From the NCBI RefSeq assembly GCF_004661485.1, contig NZ_PQVH01000012.1, positions 62,001-126,000 of the forward strand: a DNA stretch of 64,000 bases, given 5' to 3'. This DNA is from Methylotenera oryzisoli (lineage in GTDB: Bacteria; Pseudomonadota; Gammaproteobacteria; Burkholderiales; Methylophilaceae). The translations under genes were made by a program, and so were the position numbers. Below, one piece after another: positions 20,552 to 36,830 of this stretch (position 1 is its first letter; the number at the start of each line of letters is the position of its first letter). The notes under the pieces are model-generated. The model ran no database searches. It had not been told where the DNA came from and saw only the letters and a list, made by a program, of their open reading frames with translations.

Positions 20552-22069
20552 TTAGAAGTTAAATTGAGCACGGGCTGTAATTGCTTTCTCATTATCCTTC
20601 AATTTACTCTCAATCATGATTGGCGTATCAAAGTTGGTCTGAACAAAGTTAAGCATAAAACGTGTATTTGGGTTAGGTACAAAGTTCAAACCAACAGTCC
20701 AAGCACCTGCCTCAAACGTATTAGTTTTACTCGTTGTATTGATTCGCGAGACGCCGTTTTGTGTACCGCCACCAGCAGCAGCAAAGTTTGAGTTATTAAA
20801 ATCGCTGGCATCAATATGTGCATAACGTAAACCTAACTGCCAAGTGCCGCCACCTTTACCCAAATCAAAGTTATTAGTTGGTTTAACACCTTTGAAAACA
20901 CCATCTTTGTAAAAGTCAGCAAACTTCTCGCCAGTAATGTTCCATAAAGTTGATACATACCATGCATCTATATTGTTATTAAAATCAGCTGTCGGACTTA
21001 AATCACCTTTGAAACTATTACGCATCCACTCACTCACGACCTTGACTGGACCTAACGCAACAGCGCCCTCAAGAGCAAAACGCTGACGCTCAATAGCGTT
21101 GCTAGTATTTGCCACTGAGCCAACATTTGGTAATGCTAAAAAGTTCACACCACGTGCTTCTGTTCTAAACTGGTTACTACCCGCTACCCACCATGTTGAA
21201 GCACTGCTTGAAGCTGAGTTAGCCTTTGAGAACTCGGTATCTGCGTATCCAACACCTAAATGGTATACAGCATCTTTATTACCCATCAGTTCTGCAAAGT
21301 TTACCGTTGCATTTAATTGAACCTCAGGTTTGCTTACTCGGCTATCAACATCATTACTATTTTTGTTACCTTCACCGTTAATAACGGAGACAGCATAAGT
21401 CAAGCCGTCTTTTGGAATACCCCAAACCATTAAACCGCGGTCTTCATAACTACCTAAACTATCATGTAAGCTACGCTCTAAAAAGTCCAAAGTATTAGAG
21501 CTCATTTTACGCTCCATGCTAATTGGCGCTTTAAATTGACCTACAGTCACTTGCAATGGACGCCAGTAGTTTACATTCACCCACGCCTGATCAAGCGTTG
21601 CGCCAGTATTACCAGCAGTTTGACCAGCAAAGTCGCCTGATAACTGGAATGTGTAATGATCCATAATCTGACCGCTTAAAACTAAGCGAGCGCGGCGAAT
21701 ATCGAATGTATCAGATTCATTAGCAGAGCTATTAGATGCCAACTTATCATTGCCACTGTGATCAAAGTTGCGGTAGTCAGCGTGAATGCGGCCACCCAAA
21801 GCAACGCTGACTGATTTATCTTCGTTCTCAAAACGCAGACCGTCTTTATTCACTACATTAATTTGTTTTTTTGACTTTGCTTCAGCCGCATCACGTTCAC
21901 CACTGCGGCCTTTAGTTAGCAATGCGCCTTCTTCTTCAGTTAACACGCCTTTTGCAACTAACGCATTCACAATATCGATAGTAGAATCTGCAGATGCCTG
22001 TTGCGCAACACCTAACATTAATGCACCTGTGATACTCGCAGCTACCAAGCTACGTAATTTGTAGTTCAT
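20552..22069 (-). CDS. OprP/OprO-type phosphate-selective porin
   Basis: A 505-residue outer-membrane protein. The signal peptide (MNYKLRSLVAASITGALM, then AQQASA cleavage) precedes a short helical N-terminal region ('VNALVAKGVLTEEEGALL') and a beta-barrel of the PF07396 family, ending in the terminal aromatic signature AQFNF. Early barrel strands include 'SVALGGRIHADYRNFDH' and 'RRARLVLSGQIMDHYTFQL'. Homologues carry phosphate or polyphosphate across the outer membrane under phosphate limitation. A Pho box upstream and the Pit and Pst genes about 3-5 kb away support that role, although some family members are general anion porins. Confidence 0.88.
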   Translation of the reverse strand: MNYKLRSLVAASITGALMLGVAQQASADSTIDIVNALVAKGVLTEEEGALLTKGRSGERDAAEAKSKKQINVVNKDGLRFENEDKSVSVALGGRIHADYRNFDHSGNDKLASNSSANESDTFDIRRARLVLSGQIMDHYTFQLSGDFAGQTAGNTGATLDQAWVNVNYWRPLQVTVGQFKAPISMERKMSSNTLDFLERSLHDSLGSYEDRGLMVWGIPKDGLTYAVSVINGEGNKNSNDVDSRVSKPEVQLNATVNFAELMGNKDAVYHLGVGYADTEFSKANSASSSASTWWVAGSNQFRTEARGVNFLALPNVGSVANTSNAIERQRFALEGAVALGPVKVVSEWMRNSFKGDLSPTADFNNNIDAWYVSTLWNITGEKFADFYKDGVFKGVKPTNNFDLGKGGGTWQLGLRYAHIDASDFNNSNFAAAGGGTQNGVSRINTTSKTNTFEAGAWTVGLNFVPNPNTRFMLNFVQTNFDTPIMIESKLKDNEKAITARAQFNF

Positions 22070-22139
22070 TTACATTCCCTCTATTAATTTAATAATTATT
22101 TACTGCGTTTTTCGACAGAGGGGATTTTGCGGTAGCTGT

Positions 22140-22157
22140 ATTACAGTTTCATGACAG
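22140..22157 (-). promoter_or_regulatory. Pho box upstream of the porin gene
   Basis: On the reverse strand CTGTCATGAAACTGTAAT matches the PhoB consensus CTGTCAT-N4-CTGTCAY with the correct 11-bp period: the first half-site is perfect and the second has one mismatch. CAAAAT, 10 nt downstream, could be the -10. The box lies about 70 nt upstream of the start codon. Confidence 0.75.
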
Positions 22158-25312: not shown

Positions 25313-25969
25313 ATGGCAAATGCTGCACTTGGTCGATTAATGGCTGCAATTTCACCTCGTAATGACAATTACTTCGTACTTTTCAACAGCCTAGCAGACT
25401 GTGCTGTCAAAGGCTCAAAAGTACTTGCCATGATGGCTGCAGTAAGAGATAGCGAAAAGTTCGATGAACATTTTGCTGAGATTAGAAAAATCGAATCTGA
25501 AGCAGATGAATATACAAAAGAAATTTTACTCTCCCTACATAAAACATTTATTACACCATTTGACCGTCGTGAAATTCGTGAACTAGCAATGGCATTAGAT
25601 GACATCATCGACTACATGGAAGCCATTCCACAAAGTGCAAAAATATACGGTCACACCGCGTTTACACCTGAAATGGTAGCGCTAGGCCAAATTCTGCTAC
25701 GCGCATCTGAAAAAGTACGTGAAGCGGTAAGCATGCTGTCAGACATGAAAAACTCTAGCCGCATCCTACAAACTTGTGAAGAAATTAGCAGCATCGAAGG
25801 CGAAGCTGATCACGTGATGCGATCAGGCATGCATCGCTTATTTGCTGAAGAAGGCGATGCCCGCACCTTAATCCGCTCAAAAGAACTCTACGATTTATTT
25901 GAAGAAGCAGTTGATAGCTGTGAAGACGTTGCAGATGTAATCCATGGCGTTGTACTTGAGCGCATCTAA
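25313..25969 (+). CDS. DUF47 / PhoU-like accessory protein of the Pit transporter
   Basis: A 218-residue all-helical protein of the PhoU-like DUF47 family (PF01865). Recognisable stretches are 'SPRNDNYFVLFNSLADCAVK', 'HKTFITPFDRREIRELA' and the C-terminal 'ELYDLFEEAVDSCEDVADVI', which contains the (E/D)xxxD metal-binding type repeat. Members are nearly always encoded just before a Pit permease and are thought to regulate it. Here pit starts 10 nt after the stop, so the two are co-translated. Confidence 0.92.
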   Translation: MANAALGRLMAAISPRNDNYFVLFNSLADCAVKGSKVLAMMAAVRDSEKFDEHFAEIRKIESEADEYTKEILLSLHKTFITPFDRREIRELAMALDDIIDYMEAIPQSAKIYGHTAFTPEMVALGQILLRASEKVREAVSMLSDMKNSSRILQTCEEISSIEGEADHVMRSGMHRLFAEEGDARTLIRSKELYDLFEEAVDSCEDVADVIHGVVLERI

Positions 25970-25979
25970 GGGGTAAACA

Positions 25980-26981
25980 ATGGATCACGCAATTCTCATC
26001 ATGGCGTTTCTCGTGGTGGTTGCCCTCATATTTGACTTTATGAACGGTTTCCATGACGCAGCTAACTCTATTGCACTCATGGTTTCAACGCGCTTACTCA
26101 CACCACAGGCCGCGGTAGTATGGGCAGCATTTTTTAACTTCATTGCATTCCTGTTCTTTGGTCTACATGTCGCTGACACCGTGGGCAAAGGCATTATTGA
26201 TCCCAACATCGTCAACAATGCGGTGATATTTGGTGCACTGATTGGTGCAATTGCATGGAACATCATCACTTGGTGGTTCGGCATTCCGTCATCATCATCA
26301 CATGCACTCATTGGCGGCTTACTCGGTGCAGGCGTAGCGCATGCAGGGACTCAAGGCATCATTCTCGGGACCAAACTCATTACTACTGGTGTTGCCATTG
26401 TGCTGTCGCCACTATTTGGTATGCTGCTGGCCATGCTGCTCTCAGTTGCTGTGCTATGGCTGTTTCAAAGGTCGTCACCATACAAAACAGAGAACCGTTT
26501 TAATAAGATGCAATTTATTTCATCTTCTCTATTTAGCTTAGGTCACGGCGCTAACGATGCACAAAAAACCATGGGTATTATCACCGTGCTGCTATTTGCA
26601 AACGGCTACCTACACGGCGATTTTCATGTGCCATTTTGGGTAGTGATTTCATGCCAGCTAGCGATGGGCTTAGGTACATTGATGGGTGGATGGCGTATTG
26701 TGCGCACCATGGGCATGGGCATCACTAAAGTACGCCCAACCGGCGCATTCTGTGCACAAACCTCTGGTTCTATCGCATTGTTCTTAGCCACATCATTTGG
26801 TATTCCGGTTTCAACCACACATACCATCACGGGTGCAATTGTAGGCGTAGGCGTATCTCGCCGTGCTTCTGCAGTGCGTTGGGGCCTTGCATCAAGGATC
26901 GTCTGGGCATGGGTACTCACCATTCCATGCGCTGGTTTAATGGCAGCAATTGGCTACCATTTAGGCCGCAGCTTTATGTAA
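25980..26981 (+). CDS. pit: Low-affinity inorganic phosphate transporter Pit
   Basis: A 333-residue permease of the PiT family. The duplicated signature is visible as 'FDFMNGFHDAANSIALMVST' near the N-terminus and 'SSLFSLGHGANDAQKTMGI' in the second half. Both contain the conserved GxNDA or GxHDAAN core. About ten membrane segments are predicted by eye. It moves metal-phosphate with protons. It forms a two-gene operon with the DUF47 gene and ends at a strong terminator before pstS. Confidence 0.93.
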   Translation: MDHAILIMAFLVVVALIFDFMNGFHDAANSIALMVSTRLLTPQAAVVWAAFFNFIAFLFFGLHVADTVGKGIIDPNIVNNAVIFGALIGAIAWNIITWWFGIPSSSSHALIGGLLGAGVAHAGTQGIILGTKLITTGVAIVLSPLFGMLLAMLLSVAVLWLFQRSSPYKTENRFNKMQFISSSLFSLGHGANDAQKTMGIITVLLFANGYLHGDFHVPFWVVISCQLAMGLGTLMGGWRIVRTMGMGITKVRPTGAFCAQTSGSIALFLATSFGIPVSTTHTITGAIVGVGVSRRASAVRWGLASRIVWAWVLTIPCAGLMAAIGYHLGRSFM

Positions 26982-27052: not shown

Positions 27053-27086
27053 TTGTCATTATATTGTCACATTAGCTTCATATGAT
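27053..27086 (+). promoter_or_regulatory. Pho-dependent promoter of pstS
   Basis: TTGTCAT-TATA-TTGTCAC (27053-27070) is a near-perfect Pho box: two 7-bp half-sites exactly 11 bp apart. Ten nt downstream TATGAT (27081-27086) serves as the -10, the standard PhoB promoter geometry in which the box replaces the -35. It lies 39 nt upstream of pstS. Confidence 0.92.
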
Positions 27087-27125: not shown

Positions 27126-28127
27126 ATGCAATACCAGTTTACTAAATATTCAACAATAGCTAGTTTGGTTACATCATTATTTGCATTACCAAACTTTGCT
27201 GTAGCAGCCGATAAAATCATTAAGATTGACGGCTCAAGCACGGTATACCCAATTACTGAAGCGGTTGCGGAAGAATTTCAAAAATCAACAAAAACCAAAG
27301 TAACCGTGGGCATTTCAGGCACAGGTGGCGGCTTTAAAAAGTTCTGCCGCGGTGAAACCGATGTGCAAAATGCTTCACGTCCTATTCTGCAAAAAGAAAT
27401 CGATGCATGTAAAGAAGCTGGTGTGCAGTTTATTGAGTTGCCAGTCGCTTATGACGCGTTAACTGTGGTAATTAACCCAAGTAACGATTTTGCTAAAAAA
27501 ATGACTACGGCAGAACTTAAAAAGTTGTGGGAACCAGCTGCACAAGGTAAAGTAAAAACTTGGAATCAAGTAAACCCAGCATGGCCAAACACACCAGTTA
27601 AACTGTTTGGTCCAGGTGCTGACTCAGGTACTTTTGACTATTTTACTGAAGCAATTGTTGGTAAAGCAAAATCAAGCCGCGGTGACTTTACTGCATCAGA
27701 AGATGATAACGTCTTAGTTAAAGGTGTTGTTGGTGACAAAGGTGGCCTTGCTTACTTCGGTTATGCTTACTATGAAGAGAATCAAGACAAATTAACAGCG
27801 GTTTCAATTGTTGATAAACCAGGCAAACCAGGTGTATTGCCTTCAAAAGCAACAATTGAAGACGGTACTTATCAACCATTAGCACGCCCTATCTTCATCT
27901 ACGTTAATGCAACAGCAGCAGCGTTCAAGCCAGAAGTTAAAGCCTTTGTTAACTACTACCTTGAAAATAGCAAACCGCTGATTGAAGAAGTAAAATACGT
28001 TGCGTTACCTGCTAAAGAGCAAAAAGCAGTGATTACTCACTGGAAAGCACTTAAACCAGGTACTGGCTTTGGTGGTAAACCTGAAGTTGGTGTAAAAATT
28101 GAAGAATTGCTAACGCGTATTAAGTAG
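27126..28127 (+). CDS. pstS: Periplasmic phosphate-binding protein PstS
   Basis: A 333-residue binding protein. The signal peptide ends near NFAVA-ADK. Phosphate-contacting segments include '[18 protein letters not shown]', '[18 protein letters not shown]' and '[17 protein letters not shown]', the last with the conserved SGT. It delivers phosphate to PstC/PstA. A clear Pho promoter, a good ribosome site (AAGGAG) and a downstream stem-loop that probably reduces read-through fit the high PstS level needed. Confidence 0.97.
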
Positions 28128-28138
28128 TATGTTTAACT

Positions 28139-28189
28139 GACACTTGTTTGAAAGCACATAAATCGCTGCTTTTCTTACAAGTGTCTTTT
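28139..28189 (+). terminator. Attenuator-like stem-loop between pstS and pstC
   Basis: GACACTTGT (28139-28147) pairs with ACAAGTGTC (28177-28185), and an inner stem AAAGCA/TGCTTT sits within; TTTTA follows at once. This looks like a partial terminator that lets pstS mRNA outnumber pstCAB mRNA. Confidence 0.75.
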
Positions 28190-28221
28190 ACCAATCATGA
28201 TAACAAGCTGGTATATATAAC

Positions 28222-29169
28222 GTGAATACGGCAACCCAAGTGTTAAATAAATCATTGACCCCTCAAATTAGTGCTCGCTTATCAAAAAACTTCACTCGCC
28301 ACCTAAAAGAGCGTGTGATTGAGTTTATTTTGATGCTGGCTGCTTTGTCTGCAGTATTAACAACAGCTGCCATTATTGGCATTTTGCTCTATGAGTCTTA
28401 CGGTTTCTTTGAATATGTCTCTTTGTCAGACTTTTTAACCGATACGGTCTGGACGCCACTATTTGAAAATCCACGTTATGGTATCTTGCCTTTAGTTTCC
28501 GGCACATTAACCGTGACAGGCGTGGCATTGCTGATTGCGGTGCCGATTGGCACAATTAGCGCCATTTACCTGTCTGAGTTTGCATCGCACCGTGTACGTG
28601 AAACAGTAAAACCAGTACTAGAGTTGCTCGCTGGCGTACCAACCATTGTGTTTGGTTTTTTTGCGTTACTGTTTATTACCCCGCTATTACAAAAAATCAT
28701 GCCAGAGTTACCAACCTTTAACATGCTGAGCTCAGGCATTGTAATTGGCATTATGATTATCCCTTACATTGCCTCCCTGTCAGAGGATGCAATGCGCGCA
28801 GTGCCTATGAGCATGCGCGAAGGCTCTTATGCAATGGGTGCAACACGTTTTCAAACTGCGATTAGAGTAGTAACGCCAGCCGCCGTTTCAGGCATTGTGG
28901 CTGCTTATATTTTAGGGATATCTCGCGCCATCGGTGAAACCATGGTAGTAGCGATCGCAGCAGGTCAGCAGCCTAACCTGACATTTAACCCAATGGATGC
29001 CGCGGCTACGATTACTGCTTACATTGTGCAAGTTGCGATGGGTGATTTACCACATGGCAGCATCGGTTATCAAAGCATCTTTGCTGCAGGCCTGGTGCTG
29101 ATGTTGATGACACTAACGCTCAACATTATCGGCCACATCACACGCAAGAAATATAGCGAGAGATACTAA
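28222..29169 (+). CDS. pstC: Phosphate ABC transporter permease PstC
   Basis: A 315-residue inner-membrane permease. About six membrane helices follow a cytoplasmic N-terminus; the ABC-permease loop is seen around 'EDAMRAVPMSMREGSYAMGA' and 'SRAIGETMVVAIAAG'. It pairs with PstA and PstB. The start is a GTG at 28222 without a strong ribosome site; no better ATG exists before the first membrane helix. The pstA start follows the stop by 1 nt. Confidence 0.95.
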   Translation: MNTATQVLNKSLTPQISARLSKNFTRHLKERVIEFILMLAALSAVLTTAAIIGILLYESYGFFEYVSLSDFLTDTVWTPLFENPRYGILPLVSGTLTVTGVALLIAVPIGTISAIYLSEFASHRVRETVKPVLELLAGVPTIVFGFFALLFITPLLQKIMPELPTFNMLSSGIVIGIMIIPYIASLSEDAMRAVPMSMREGSYAMGATRFQTAIRVVTPAAVSGIVAAYILGISRAIGETMVVAIAAGQQPNLTFNPMDAAATITAYIVQVAMGDLPHGSIGYQSIFAAGLVLMLMTLTLNIIGHITRKKYSERY

Positions 29170-29170
29170 A

Positions 29171-30118
29171 ATGAACAACCCATCTGCAAATCACATCAAT
29201 AAAAATTTAGACGAAGTGCGTGCCATGATTCATCGGCACAAACTCAATGACTATATATTTTCCATCATTGGCTTACTGTGCCTGATGGTTGGTCTGGTGA
29301 CGTTATTAACCCTGTTTATTGACTTAATCATTCAAGGCTATCCTAAGTTATTGTCTTTAAGCTTTTATACCGACTTTCCATCACGTCGCGCTGCTAGTGC
29401 AGGCTTACTCTCAGCGCTAGTAGGCTCATCGCTGGTGATGTTGGTCACGTTTATCTCAGCAGTACCGGTGGGCGTCATGGCAGCCATTTATCTAGAAGAG
29501 TACGCCCCTAAAAACTGGTTTTCAGACCTTATCGAGATTAACGTTTCTAACTTAGCCGCTGTACCTTCTATTATTTACGGTTTGTTAGCACTGGGCTTAT
29601 TTGTTTACATTTTAGATCTTGGTCAAAGCATCGTGACTGCAGGTCTGACATTAGGCTTGTTGATACTGCCGGTGGTGATTGTTGCAACACGTGAATCAAT
29701 CCGCAGCATCCCGATTGCGATTCGCGAGGCGGCTTATGCTGTTGGCGCAACCAAATGGCAAGTAGTGTATGACCATGTGATTAAATACTCTTTCGGTGGC
29801 ATTCTCACCGGCGTAATTATCGGCATGGCACGTGCCATCGGTGAAACTGCACCTATCATTACCATTGGCGCATTGACCTTCATCGCATTCTTACCGCCAT
29901 CTCCAGTGACGACCAGCGCACCATTCCTTAACTTTGAATGGCTATCATCTGGCTTCACGGTATTACCGATTCAAATGTTTAGCTGGTTATCTCGCCCAAG
30001 CGAGGCATTCCATGTGAACGCTGCAGCAGCTGGCGTGATCATCATTTTAGTAACCCTGATCATGAACGGTTTTGCCATCAGAATGCGTTACAAAATGCGT
30101 AAAAACATTAAATGGTAA
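29171..30118 (+). CDS. pstA: Phosphate ABC transporter permease PstA
   Basis: A 315-residue permease partner of PstC. An N-terminal cytoplasmic stretch (about 40 residues) precedes the first helix 'IIGLLCLMVGLVTLLTLFI'. The ABC loop reads 'ATRESIRSIPIAIREAAYAV' and is followed by 'GMARAIGETAPIITIGA'. It immediately follows pstC and precedes pstB by 46 nt. Confidence 0.95.
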   Translation: MNNPSANHINKNLDEVRAMIHRHKLNDYIFSIIGLLCLMVGLVTLLTLFIDLIIQGYPKLLSLSFYTDFPSRRAASAGLLSALVGSSLVMLVTFISAVPVGVMAAIYLEEYAPKNWFSDLIEINVSNLAAVPSIIYGLLALGLFVYILDLGQSIVTAGLTLGLLILPVVIVATRESIRSIPIAIREAAYAVGATKWQVVYDHVIKYSFGGILTGVIIGMARAIGETAPIITIGALTFIAFLPPSPVTTSAPFLNFEWLSSGFTVLPIQMFSWLSRPSEAFHVNAAAAGVIIILVTLIMNGFAIRMRYKMRKNIKW

Positions 30119-30164
30119 TTCACGGCTTATCTCTATATATCTATCAACAGGAATCTAAATTCTC

Positions 30165-30944
30165 ATGATGACGACAACTACACCAGTAAAAGCTGAAGCA
30201 CGTAATCTCAGTTTTTTTTATAACGGTGGCCACAACGCAGTTAAGAATGTTTCAATGCCTTTGTATGAAAATAAAATCACGGCATTGATCGGGCCTTCTG
30301 GCTGCGGTAAATCTACATTTTTACGCTGCTTTAATCGCATGCATGATTTGTACCCAGGTAACAAATACGACGGGCAGATTATTATGCATCCGGATGACAC
30401 AAACATTTTAGAAAAAAATGTAGACCCGATTGAAGTACGCATGCGTATTAGCATGGTATTTCAGAAACCGAATCCATTTCCAAAATCAATTTACGAAAAC
30501 GTAGCTTACGGTTTACGTGTACGTGGCGAAAAAAACCGTCGCGTTGTAGATGATAAGGTAGAAGAAGCATTAAAAGGTGCTGCGCTTTGGAATGAGGTAA
30601 AAGACCGTCTGCAAGACTTGGCTTTTAATTTATCTGGCGGTCAGCAACAACGTTTATGTATCGCACGTGCCTTGGCAACCGACCCTGAAATCATGCTGTT
30701 TGACGAGCCTACATCAGCGCTTGACCCAATTGCCACAGCAAATATTGAAGAACTGATGAGTGAGTTACGCAATAAGCTCACGATTCTGGTAGTGACTCAT
30801 AACATGCAGCAAGCAGCCCGGGTTTCTGACTACACAGCTTATATGTACTTAGGTGAGCTGATTGAGCATGGTGAGACTGATCGTATTTTCACCCGCCCTT
30901 CACGTAAAGAAACTGAAGATTACATTACAGGTAAGTTTGGTTAA
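30165..30944 (+). CDS. pstB: Phosphate ABC transporter ATPase PstB
   Basis: A 259-residue ABC ATPase. The Walker A motif is [19 protein letters not shown], the signature is [16 protein letters not shown], and Walker B is [13 protein letters not shown] with the H-loop in [12 protein letters not shown]. This is the standard length and sequence of PstB. It is the last gene of pstSCAB: no phoU follows, and phoB/phoR are not in the window. An AGGA ribosome site and an ATG doublet mark the start. Confidence 0.97.
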
Positions 30945-33908: not shown

Positions 33909-35099
33909 TCAGGCAATTGACACATACGCGCCATTAACAGCTGGCCGCGCATTAATTAACGCCGCATAAAATTGCACCATGCGCTCAGCCTGTATAGATG
34001 CCGTCCATTTAGCAAGCACGTAAGACCTAGCCCGCAGCCCAAGTTCAAAGCGCTCTTCTGGGTACATTAACAAATGTTTAACCTTGTCAGAAAACCCATC
34101 AACATGATCTGGTGCAATCAAGGCACCTTGCCCATCTACCAATATTGAAGCTGTACCAAGCTCGGCTATCGCAACCACTGGTGTGCCTTGTGCCATCGCC
34201 TCGAGCAACACCAAACCCTGTGTTTCACTTTTTGAGGCGAACACAAACACATCAGCTGCCTGATAGCAGGCATTAAGTTCCAGCTCACGATCAAGATATC
34301 CAATAAACTGTACATTATGTGCAAGCCCCAACGCCTGAGTTAAGCGATGCAGGCTGGCTTCAGCAGGACCTTCGCCAGTGATCACCAGCAGCACATCCGG
34401 CACATCTTGCACCAATACTTTTAGCATTTCCAGTAAGAAGGCAATATTCTTCTCAAATGCAACACGGCCCACATACAGTAGCATTGGGCGCTCTAAAGGT
34501 ATCTCATACTTTTGTCTGAACGCTTTACCATCAGCGCCTTTAAAGCTCTGCATTTGCAAACCAGTAGGCACCACTTCTGCATTCACATTAACGCCGTATC
34601 CGCGCAAAACATCCAGCATGGGCTGTGATGGTGCCACGATGCCATCAACGGCATTGCATTGGCGTTTGGAGATCATTCTGGCAACACCACGCGCCATTGG
34701 CTTAGGAATCCACGGTAAATAATGATGTAAGTAATCTTCAAAAAACGTATGGTAAGTTTCTACACAAGGGACATTTAACTCGCGCGCCAATTTCAACCCT
34801 ACATAATGTGCAACAAACGGGGTGTGGATATGTACTAAGTCATACCCTTCTCGGCGTAGATCCGGCAAGCGCTGCAGCACCTCTCCATACTTCATGAGTT
34901 TATCTTCTGGGTCAAAATAAATGCTACGCGCCGGAATACGCTTAATCCATGACTCGTCTTCGGTAGCGACACCATAATCTGGTGCAATTAAATGCACTTC
35001 ATGCCCTAAGCCTTGCATCTGCTCGACAAAAGTTCTAATCGAAGTTGAAACGCCATTAATACGTGGGAAATATACATCAGATATAAATAGTATTTTCAT
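33909..35099 (-). CDS. GT4 glycosyltransferase, probable diacylglycerol glycosyltransferase
   Basis: A 396-residue GT-B fold enzyme. The N-terminal acceptor domain begins KILFISDVYFPRINGVSTS (NGV at 15-17); the donor domain contains GRVAFEKN (211-218) and the EX7E motif within SKSETQGLVLLEAMAQGTPV (Glu292, Glu300). The SETQGL form is typical of GT4 enzymes that glycosylate diacylglycerol (MGS type) and of relatives such as MgtA and SQD2, so a membrane glycolipid product is likely but unproven. The upstream Pho-type promoter indicates expression under phosphate limitation. It is divergent from a phospholipase C gene that could supply diacylglycerol. Confidence 0.82.
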   Translation of the reverse strand: MKILFISDVYFPRINGVSTSIRTFVEQMQGLGHEVHLIAPDYGVATEDESWIKRIPARSIYFDPEDKLMKYGEVLQRLPDLRREGYDLVHIHTPFVAHYVGLKLARELNVPCVETYHTFFEDYLHHYLPWIPKPMARGVARMISKRQCNAVDGIVAPSQPMLDVLRGYGVNVNAEVVPTGLQMQSFKGADGKAFRQKYEIPLERPMLLYVGRVAFEKNIAFLLEMLKVLVQDVPDVLLVITGEGPAEASLHRLTQALGLAHNVQFIGYLDRELELNACYQAADVFVFASKSETQGLVLLEAMAQGTPVVAIAELGTASILVDGQGALIAPDHVDGFSDKVKHLLMYPEERFELGLRARSYVLAKWTASIQAERMVQFYAALINARPAVNGAYVSIA

Positions 35100-35144: not shown

Positions 35145-35178
35145 AATATAAACACGCTATATGACAGTTTAATGAAAG
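35145..35178 (-). promoter_or_regulatory. Pho-dependent promoter of the glycosyltransferase gene
   Basis: On the reverse strand CTTTCAT-TAAA-CTGTCAT (complement of 35161-35178) differs from the Pho box by one base, with exact 11-bp spacing. Ten nt downstream lies the -10 TATATT (complement of 35145-35150), the same geometry as at pstS. The start codon is 45 nt further on. Confidence 0.85.
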
Positions 35179-35247: not shown

Positions 35248-35281
35248 ACATCATCGTATTGTCATTTTTATTTAATATCAC
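35248..35281 (+). promoter_or_regulatory. Weaker Pho-type promoter of the phospholipase C gene
   Basis: ACATCAT-CGTA-TTGTCAT (35248-35265) has a good second half-site and a partial first one (TCAT conserved) at the correct 11-bp period. TATCAC (35276-35281) follows after 10 nt. The transcript would begin only a few bases before the GTG/ATG start codons. Confidence 0.5.
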
Positions 35282-35299: not shown

Positions 35300-36145
35300 A
35301 TGCAAGTACCTAAGATAATCAAACAGTATTACTGGTGGTTGCCATGCTGCATATACTCAGCTGATGCAAATGCGTGGGGGCTGATGACTCACCTCTACTT
35401 TGCACAATCACTGTTATGGGCTATGCCGTTACTAGACCCTAAGCTACAAACTGCGATTAAGAAGTTTCCAGACTTAGTGATGGCTGGTGCATGCATTCCT
35501 GATCTGGCGCTAGTGAGCCAACCGTTTAACAATACCCACGCATGGAAAAGTGCACATCAGCTACTTGATGTAGCAAAGTCTGATGAGGAAATGGCGATTG
35601 CTATTGGTTACGCTAGCCACTTATATATTGATGTGATTGCGCATCATCATTTCGTGCCTGCGCATGAGGCCATGTGGTTTAAAAGCACAATGTTTACCCA
35701 TATCACTTCAGAGTGGGCAATGGATGCTTATCTAATGCCACTCATTAAAACCTCGCCACATCAGCTGTTGAGCGAACATCACTTTGCTATCACCCGATTC
35801 GTCAGTACTCATTTTAATTGTGCTGAAGACATCACGAGCGCTGCGATTAAACGCCTAGCATTGGGAGACGCCCTATTAAGACGGATGAGAATACCGCAGC
35901 TGATTCACAGATTTGCACGTGTGCTTGATCGTGGCCTAGGCCAGAACTTTGTGTATTACATCTCAAAAACGCAACTTGCGCTAGCGGATATCGGTAAAGT
36001 ATTGGACGGGAATCAACCCGTATTTGATGCTGAATTAAAGAATATCAGTATGGAGCAACTAGAACAATGGCGTGAACAGTGCCTAAACCATTTGCAGCAC
36101 ATGCACCCACAGCCTGTGCAGTATTTCACCCACCCCAAACACTAA
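35300..36145 (+). CDS. Zinc-dependent phospholipase C family protein (PF00882)
   Basis: A 281-residue protein from the ATG at 35300; a GTG at 35291 is an alternative, and neither has a clear ribosome site. In numbering from the GTG, the short N-terminal hydrophobic stretch ends in A-N-A before Trp29, so cleavage would leave Trp at the N-terminus, as in Bacillus phospholipase C where Trp1 binds zinc. Further family-type ligands are His34 (GLMTHLYFAQ), Asp71 (ACIPDLAL), His83/His89, His110 and Asp114 (YASHLYIDVIAHHH) and Glu141 (TSEWAMD). Expected action: hydrolysis of phospholipids to diacylglycerol and a phosphorylated head group. Its Pho-type promoter and divergent glycosyltransferase neighbour suggest lipid turnover during phosphate starvation. 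Confidence 0.78.
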   Translation: MQVPKIIKQYYWWLPCCIYSADANAWGLMTHLYFAQSLLWAMPLLDPKLQTAIKKFPDLVMAGACIPDLALVSQPFNNTHAWKSAHQLLDVAKSDEEMAIAIGYASHLYIDVIAHHHFVPAHEAMWFKSTMFTHITSEWAMDAYLMPLIKTSPHQLLSEHHFAITRFVSTHFNCAEDITSAAIKRLALGDALLRRMRIPQLIHRFARVLDRGLGQNFVYYISKTQLALADIGKVLDGNQPVFDAELKNISMEQLEQWREQCLNHLQHMHPQPVQYFTHPKH

Positions 36146-36755: not shown

Positions 36756-36801
36756 CCACCTCCAATATTTACTTAAAGTGGAGCTAGCTTGTCACTGCAA
36801 T

Positions 36802-36830
36802 GTGAACAATTGATGAAAAAGAGATGAAGC
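36802..36830 (-). promoter_or_regulatory. Degenerate Pho-like triple repeat upstream of the PAP2 gene
   Basis: On the reverse strand GCTTCAT-CTCT-TTTTCAT-CAAT-TGTTCAC gives three TCAT/TCAC half-sites spaced exactly 11 bp. The G of the TGTCA core is missing from each, and no good -10 lies 10 nt downstream, so this is tentative. Confidence 0.3.

Follow-up and report, generated by a model that had tools for sequence, protein, structure and literature searches.

The window analysed here, a stretch of 64,000 nucleotides from Methylotenera oryzisoli, carries a gene for a glycosyltransferase (GT), a zinc-dependent phospholipase C gene (ZnPLC) divergent from it, a lipid phosphatase gene of the PAP2 superfamily, the pst genes and a porin gene, together with the regulatory sites collected in Table 1.

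Table 1. Genes and candidate regulatory sites of the window, with positions counted from its first nucleotide.
Feature	Position	Strand	Basis and remarks
Pho box of the Porin_O_P gene (20552-22069), CTGTCAT GAAA CTGTAAT	22140..22157	-	one mismatch, matrix 12.1
pstS promoter (yardstick), TTGTCAT TATA TTGTCAC-N10-TATGAT	27053..27086	+	pattern, matrix
pstS, two permease genes, pstB	27126..30944	+	domain profiles
GT4 glycosyltransferase (GT), 396 aa, Agt-like, probable diacylglycerol glycosyltransferase	33909..35099	-	domain and NCBIfam profiles, genomic context
-10 element TATATT, 10 nt past the Pho box	35145..35150	-	sequence, footprint
Pho box of the GT promoter, CTTTCAT TAAA CTGTCAT	35161..35178	-	pattern match, footprint, pstS-trained matrix
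Degenerate Pho half-site array toward ZnPLC, ATCAT-N6-GTCAT-N6-TTAAT	35250..35276	+	half-site pattern
Zn-dependent phospholipase C (ZnPLC, PF00882)	35300..36145	+	PF00882 profile; start in the ORF list, GTG 35291
PAP2-superfamily lipid phosphatase, 179 aa	36216..36755	-	domain profiles; convergent with ZnPLC
PAP2 Pho site, TTCAT-N6-TTCAT-N6-TTCAC-N10-CAAGCT	36786..36828	-	matrix 5.8, conservation; half-sites 36828-36802

Read on the minus strand from 35178 to 35145, the region upstream of the GT has the form CTTTCAT-TAAA-CTGTCAT-N10-TATATT, the stretch between the box and TATATT being ATAGCGTGTT, and a further 45 nt intervene before the GT start codon (35099). The box is a pair of 7-bp direct repeats separated by 4 nt (11-bp period), and departs from CTGTCATN4CTGTCAT at one position. 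The original prediction had described a near-consensus Pho box with a single mismatch on the reverse strand, a TATATT exactly 10 nt after it and a geometry equal to that of the pstS promoter; all three statements hold, the pstS promoter having the same 10-nt spacing. With classical Pho promoters of the pstS and phoB type, the GT promoter shares the two half-sites, the 11-bp period and the -10 element at 10 nt; it differs in its first half-site, which reads TTCAT and not GTCAT, and has otherwise nothing unusual. When a sigma-70 -35 element was looked for at the GT promoter none was found, and a sigma-70 promoter at this site was rejected. A promoter serving the divergent gene alone was also considered and rejected.

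A search of the genome by pattern revealed how rare this arrangement is. CTKTCATN4CTGTCAT occurs a single time in the whole 2.66-Mb Methylotenera genome, and KTCATN6GTCAYN10TANNNT has exactly four matches, which lie in front of phoB, ppk, pstS and the GT. About 0.4 matches to the full pattern are expected per genome, a value obtained as the product of 17.3 boxes under a Markov model and approximately 0.025 for TANNNT, while 20 Mb of simulated Markov sequence did not contain the full pattern once; a chance origin of the GT site was rejected. With one mismatch allowed, the full 32-nt pattern matched the genome 25 times against 18 for the reversed control, which is near chance. Weaker matches were therefore judged by conservation only, being used where they were intergenic and the site was conserved in relatives.

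The original prediction had proposed a scan with a PhoB matrix trained on the pstS site. Such a matrix, trained on the pstS promoters of relatives only (38 regions), gave the GT site the second-highest score of the window (19.7), after pstS (34.5) and before the porin gene (12.1), PAP2 (5.8) and the next candidate (1.8). In the genome as a whole, these values for pstS, the GT and the porin gene stand beside those for phoB (28.4), ppk (21.4), phoU (18.2), olsB (15.6) and alkaline phosphatase (6.4), so that sites similar to that of the GT are found at pstS, phoB, ppk, phoU and alkaline phosphatase. Upstream of 80 GT orthologs the median score was 12.5, compared with -10.8 for reversed sequences. 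Among the Methylophilaceae orthologs (64-93% protein identity) the upstream consensus is TTCAT-N6-GTCAY-N10-TANNNT, with variable surrounding bases; in 54 distinct GT-ZnPLC intergenic regions this pattern is exact in 45 and present with at most two mismatches in all 54, and its reversed version is exact in 0/54. PhoB is encoded in the genome (TIGR02154, 349 bits against a cut-off of 296). Because the pattern is both rare in the genome and conserved in 45/54 regions against 0/54 in the control, the GT promoter is very likely under PhoB control, and the sequence supports this strongly.

What the GT makes is suggested by its neighbours. Its best NCBIfam model is NF049988, alpha-monoglucosyldiacylglycerol synthase (2.7e-41, residues 1-382), and the score of 142 bits falls so far short of the curated cut-off of 400 bits that this name cannot be claimed from that model; the second-best is GlcNAc-phosphatidylglycerol synthase (121 bits), models for EPS enzymes score too, and among solved structures, searches by sequence and by profile returned general GT4 enzymes only. 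Of the 399 Burkholderiales genomes compared, 106 have a GT ortholog; outside Methylophilaceae, a gene for a PlcP-like metallophosphoesterase directly adjoins the ortholog in 10 of 17 loci (L182-L198). On the basis of this neighbourhood, the GT is probably the Agt-type GT4 enzyme of plcP loci and would most likely replace phospholipids with sugar lipids. Clusters of plcP and agt are established in marine bacteria (PMC4796936) and in P. aeruginosa (PMC8528852), where both genes have Pho boxes and the products are MGDG and GADG. A glycosyltransferase had originally been thought no routine Pho target. This premise is wrong, since the Agt glycosyltransferases of PlcP-Agt remodelling are known Pho targets (PMC4796936, PMC8528852) and the GT orthologs adjoin PlcP-like genes; the Pho promoter itself, and the idea that the site is informative about the role of the gene, stand.

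The divergent gene belongs to a different family of phospholipases. ZnPLC scores 77.6 bits with PF00882, above the curated cut-off of 26.8, and its N-terminus resembles a signal peptide ending in A-N-A, followed by W (35375). The 34 aligned members likewise have a short hydrophobic N-terminal stretch, mostly ending in D-A-N-A and followed by W-G. Counting this W as residue 1, W1, H6, D43, H55, H82, D86, H90/H92, H109 and E113 are invariant in the 34, which gives the ligand pattern W1, H6, D43, H55, H82xxxD86, H90/H92, H109xxxE113. The superfamily also includes S1 nuclease, in which zinc is coordinated by the Trp that begins the mature chain (PMC5201275). These features fit an exported active enzyme with a predicted phospholipase C activity. 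Two ZnPLC models are all-helical (mean pLDDT 75 and 77); Foldseek found for them no significant match to a PLC/P1-type structure, and the comparison with SmNuc1, an S1/P1-type nuclease, is at noise level for models of moderate confidence (E ~1.3, TM 0.25), so it was left out of the evidence for the fold. ZnPLC therefore shares with the PF00882 and S1-P1 nuclease superfamily the profile match, the N-terminal Trp and the ligand pattern; it differs in that its subfamily is tied to a Pho-controlled GT and in having no relative that could be found among solved structures, whether by sequence or by profile. Among the 74 loci with enough DNA, 68 have the gene in divergent orientation no more than 2.5 kb from the GT. 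On its strand, most relatives have 3-4 intact TCAY half-sites with an 11-bp period, and an exact set of three in tandem is present in 38 of 55 regions and, for the reversed control, in none. The window's own array is degenerate and scores 1.8 with the pstS-trained matrix.

PlcP, by contrast, had no match in the M. oryzisoli genome at E<=1e-20, whose PF00149 members comprise ApaH, LpxH and two further proteins that do not resemble PlcP. Among 120 Methylophilaceae genomes, the GT is present in 102, PlcP in 23 (all with the GT) and ZnPLC in 78 (77 with the GT). The GT-bearing genomes have ZnPLC only in 76 cases, PlcP only in 22, both in 1 and neither in 3, and 17 of the 18 genomes without the GT have neither. 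Outside the family the loose cut-off of 1e-40 picks up paralogs, a broad group with about 50% identity that would put PlcP in 201 of the 399 genomes of the order, and the strict value of E<=1e-100, chosen after seeing the score gap, was therefore used. With these thresholds, the 106 GT-bearing genomes of the order comprise 44 with ZnPLC only, 47 with PlcP only, none with both and 15 with neither (outside Methylophilaceae 35, 41, 0 and 15, respectively); the GT is absent in 11 of 55 ZnPLC genomes. Both states occur in different genomes of one genus (g171), and on a tree of 61 GT proteins the ZnPLC/PlcP label needs 8 changes. A phylogenetically strict independent-pairs test on supported branches always pointed toward exchange (mean 5.4 opposite, 0 same), with a borderline median p of ~0.06. 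In the PlcP-type Methylophilaceae (L242-L245), plcP has the same exact Pho promoter. The simplest reading of these distributions is a non-orthologous replacement, in which an unrelated exported ZnPLC seems to have displaced PlcP. Transcripts of plcP have been assigned to Methylotenera (PMC9239053), and PlcP was found in 1 of 15 sampled Methylotenera genomes (G034); carriage by a minority, or a difference in naming, would reconcile both. In two genera with genomes of 1.2-1.4 Mb (g4 and g6; L246-L253, L256-L258), olsB lies directly 3' of plcP with PAP2 and the GT nearby, and in two other genomes (G473, G451) olsB is near the ZnPLC-GT pair.

Other lipid genes carry comparable sites. PAP2 is present in 66 of 74 loci around the GT, and its Pho pattern recurs at one mismatch in 51 of 63 relatives and in no controls; the same comparison for glmM, the gene next to PAP2, gave no conserved Pho site in relatives. 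The half-site arrays at ZnPLC and PAP2, both conserved, are additions to the original prediction. In 57 of 80 relatives pstB also lies within the fetched GT locus. Elsewhere in the genome, olsB and olsA are adjacent (L146 1501-3032; L166 235-1086), with scores below their NCBIfam cut-offs (184 against 320 and 124 against 300 bits), and the Pho site before olsB is conserved in 30/30 relatives (0-2 mismatches, against 4-6 in the control). This arrangement is like that of known Pho-controlled ornithine-lipid synthesis (olsBA), a function that we predict for these genes in Methylophilaceae. Given the conserved Pho sites at olsB and at the lipid genes beside the GT, the predicted regulon would include two phosphate-free lipid routes.

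Several further genes and Pho-like sites were observed. The phosphate-selective porin O/P homolog (window 20552-22157, minus strand) lacks TANNNT at the usual distance from its box, where the sequence is the GCAAAA-AT region. Just 5' of pstS, at 25313-26981 on the plus strand, lie a TIGR00153 (PhoU-like) gene and a gene for a PitA-like phosphate transporter. The phoU gene (L159) is not part of the pst operon but stands elsewhere, behind a Pho-like site of its own. Another Pho-like site (matrix 13.3) is intergenic and lies some 120 nt 5' of a DUF1924 gene (L149 928-1377, minus strand). An ORF of 48 codons with a ribosome-binding site (L156 1416-1270, minus strand; MYTYQQYDDVALDVVLDADQVIRFIFTAVFVVAVFVVPTAVAIQFFMV) is preceded by a strong Pho-like site (G000:C15:21580-21611) whose matrix score of 21.5 exceeds that of the GT site; the ORF may encode a small membrane protein that belongs to the Pho regulon.

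Taken together, these results are best read as a Pho-controlled lipid remodelling system in which ZnPLC takes the place of PlcP and feeds the GT, with PAP2 and olsBA switched on alongside; we give this reading a probability of roughly 70%. The sequences themselves show that the promoter exists and is conserved, that the genes next to the GT and their Pho sites are conserved with it, that PlcP is missing and that the two phospholipases hardly ever occur together; from this we infer PhoB binding, the enzyme activities, the lipid products and the compartment. Phosphate scarcity would activate PhoB, whose gene has a promoter of the same type, and PhoB would occupy the two direct half-sites of the GT promoter, standing in for a -35 element and directing a transcription start about 40 nt 5' of the GT start codon. 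The divergent exported ZnPLC and PAP2 would be switched on simultaneously from their own Pho sites, ZnPLC converting membrane phospholipids, and PAP2 phosphatidate, into diacylglycerol; the phosphate-containing head groups thus freed would pass to alkaline phosphatase and Pst, the GT would turn diacylglycerol into a phosphate-free glycolipid, and olsBA would produce ornithine lipid in parallel. For diacylglycerol made outside to reach a cytosolic GT, such a route relies on fast diacylglycerol flip-flop.

PlcH and PlcN of Pseudomonas are Pho-controlled secreted phospholipases that attack external phospholipids, and ZnPLC could similarly be a scavenger that does not feed the GT, the latter still being under Pho control. 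Its export signal and its Pho sites would suit this role equally, and alkaline phosphatase and a phosphate-type porin belong to the same predicted regulon; however, neither the alternation of ZnPLC with PlcP in GT-bearing genomes nor its regular divergent placement beside the GT would be expected of a scavenger, and we regard this explanation as unlikely. It is more doubtful still that the substrate of the GT is a surface polysaccharide, LPS or another lipid such as phosphatidylglycerol, and that the Pho switch alters the cell surface: GT4 enzymes are diverse, and the scores of the GlcNAc-phosphatidylglycerol synthase and EPS models are in keeping with such a role, but polysaccharide genes are absent beside the GT, its constant partners are a phospholipase C of either kind and PAP2, its orthologs adjoin PlcP-like genes, and olsB is predicted to be co-regulated. 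A very improbable alternative is that the conserved sequence is a plain housekeeping promoter or serves another OmpR-type regulator: while the first half-site of the relatives is usually TTCAT and their -10 elements vary, the site is found by a matrix trained on pstS, its full geometry occurs in the genome nowhere but at phoB, ppk, pstS and the GT, and its -10 element has the 10-nt spacing without a sigma-70 -35.

If remodelling with ZnPLC in place of PlcP is the correct reading, its consequences extend beyond this locus. Genomic and metagenomic surveys take the PlcP gene as their marker of phosphorus-driven lipid remodelling. Should ZnPLC do the job of PlcP in most Methylophilaceae (78/120, against 23/120 for PlcP), surveys of plcP would undercount remodelling, and the undercount would affect abundant freshwater methylotrophs and other Burkholderiales. 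We lean slightly toward a more general view, in which diacylglycerol for Pho-controlled remodelling in Burkholderiales is supplied by either PlcP or an exported ZnPLC of the PF00882 family, the two being interchangeable and repeatedly swapped around an Agt-like GT, and in which the ZnPLC form would shift phospholipid breakdown to the periplasmic side. The swap would also make it possible to test cleanly whether that side can supply diacylglycerol. A literature search that covered few subscription papers returned none linking PF00882 to lipid remodelling.

PlcP-Agt remodelling has been described in Phaeobacter, SAR11, Agrobacterium, P. aeruginosa (PA3219/PA3218/PA0842) and Methylosinus (PMC4796936, PMC8528852, PMC9239053), and the module described here resembles it in several respects: (i) a Pho-box-controlled GT4 gene stands beside a phospholipase gene; (ii) in related families the GT orthologs adjoin a PlcP-like gene; and (iii) Pho boxes precede the genes of the module, namely the GT, ZnPLC and PAP2, and plcP in relatives. 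However, the M. oryzisoli genome is without PlcP, and a non-homologous exported ZnPLC (PF00882), of predicted activity, together with PAP2, occupies its place. Judged from gene content and promoters, the module would thus work like PlcP-Agt and yet is not a member of that system, because the defining PlcP is missing.
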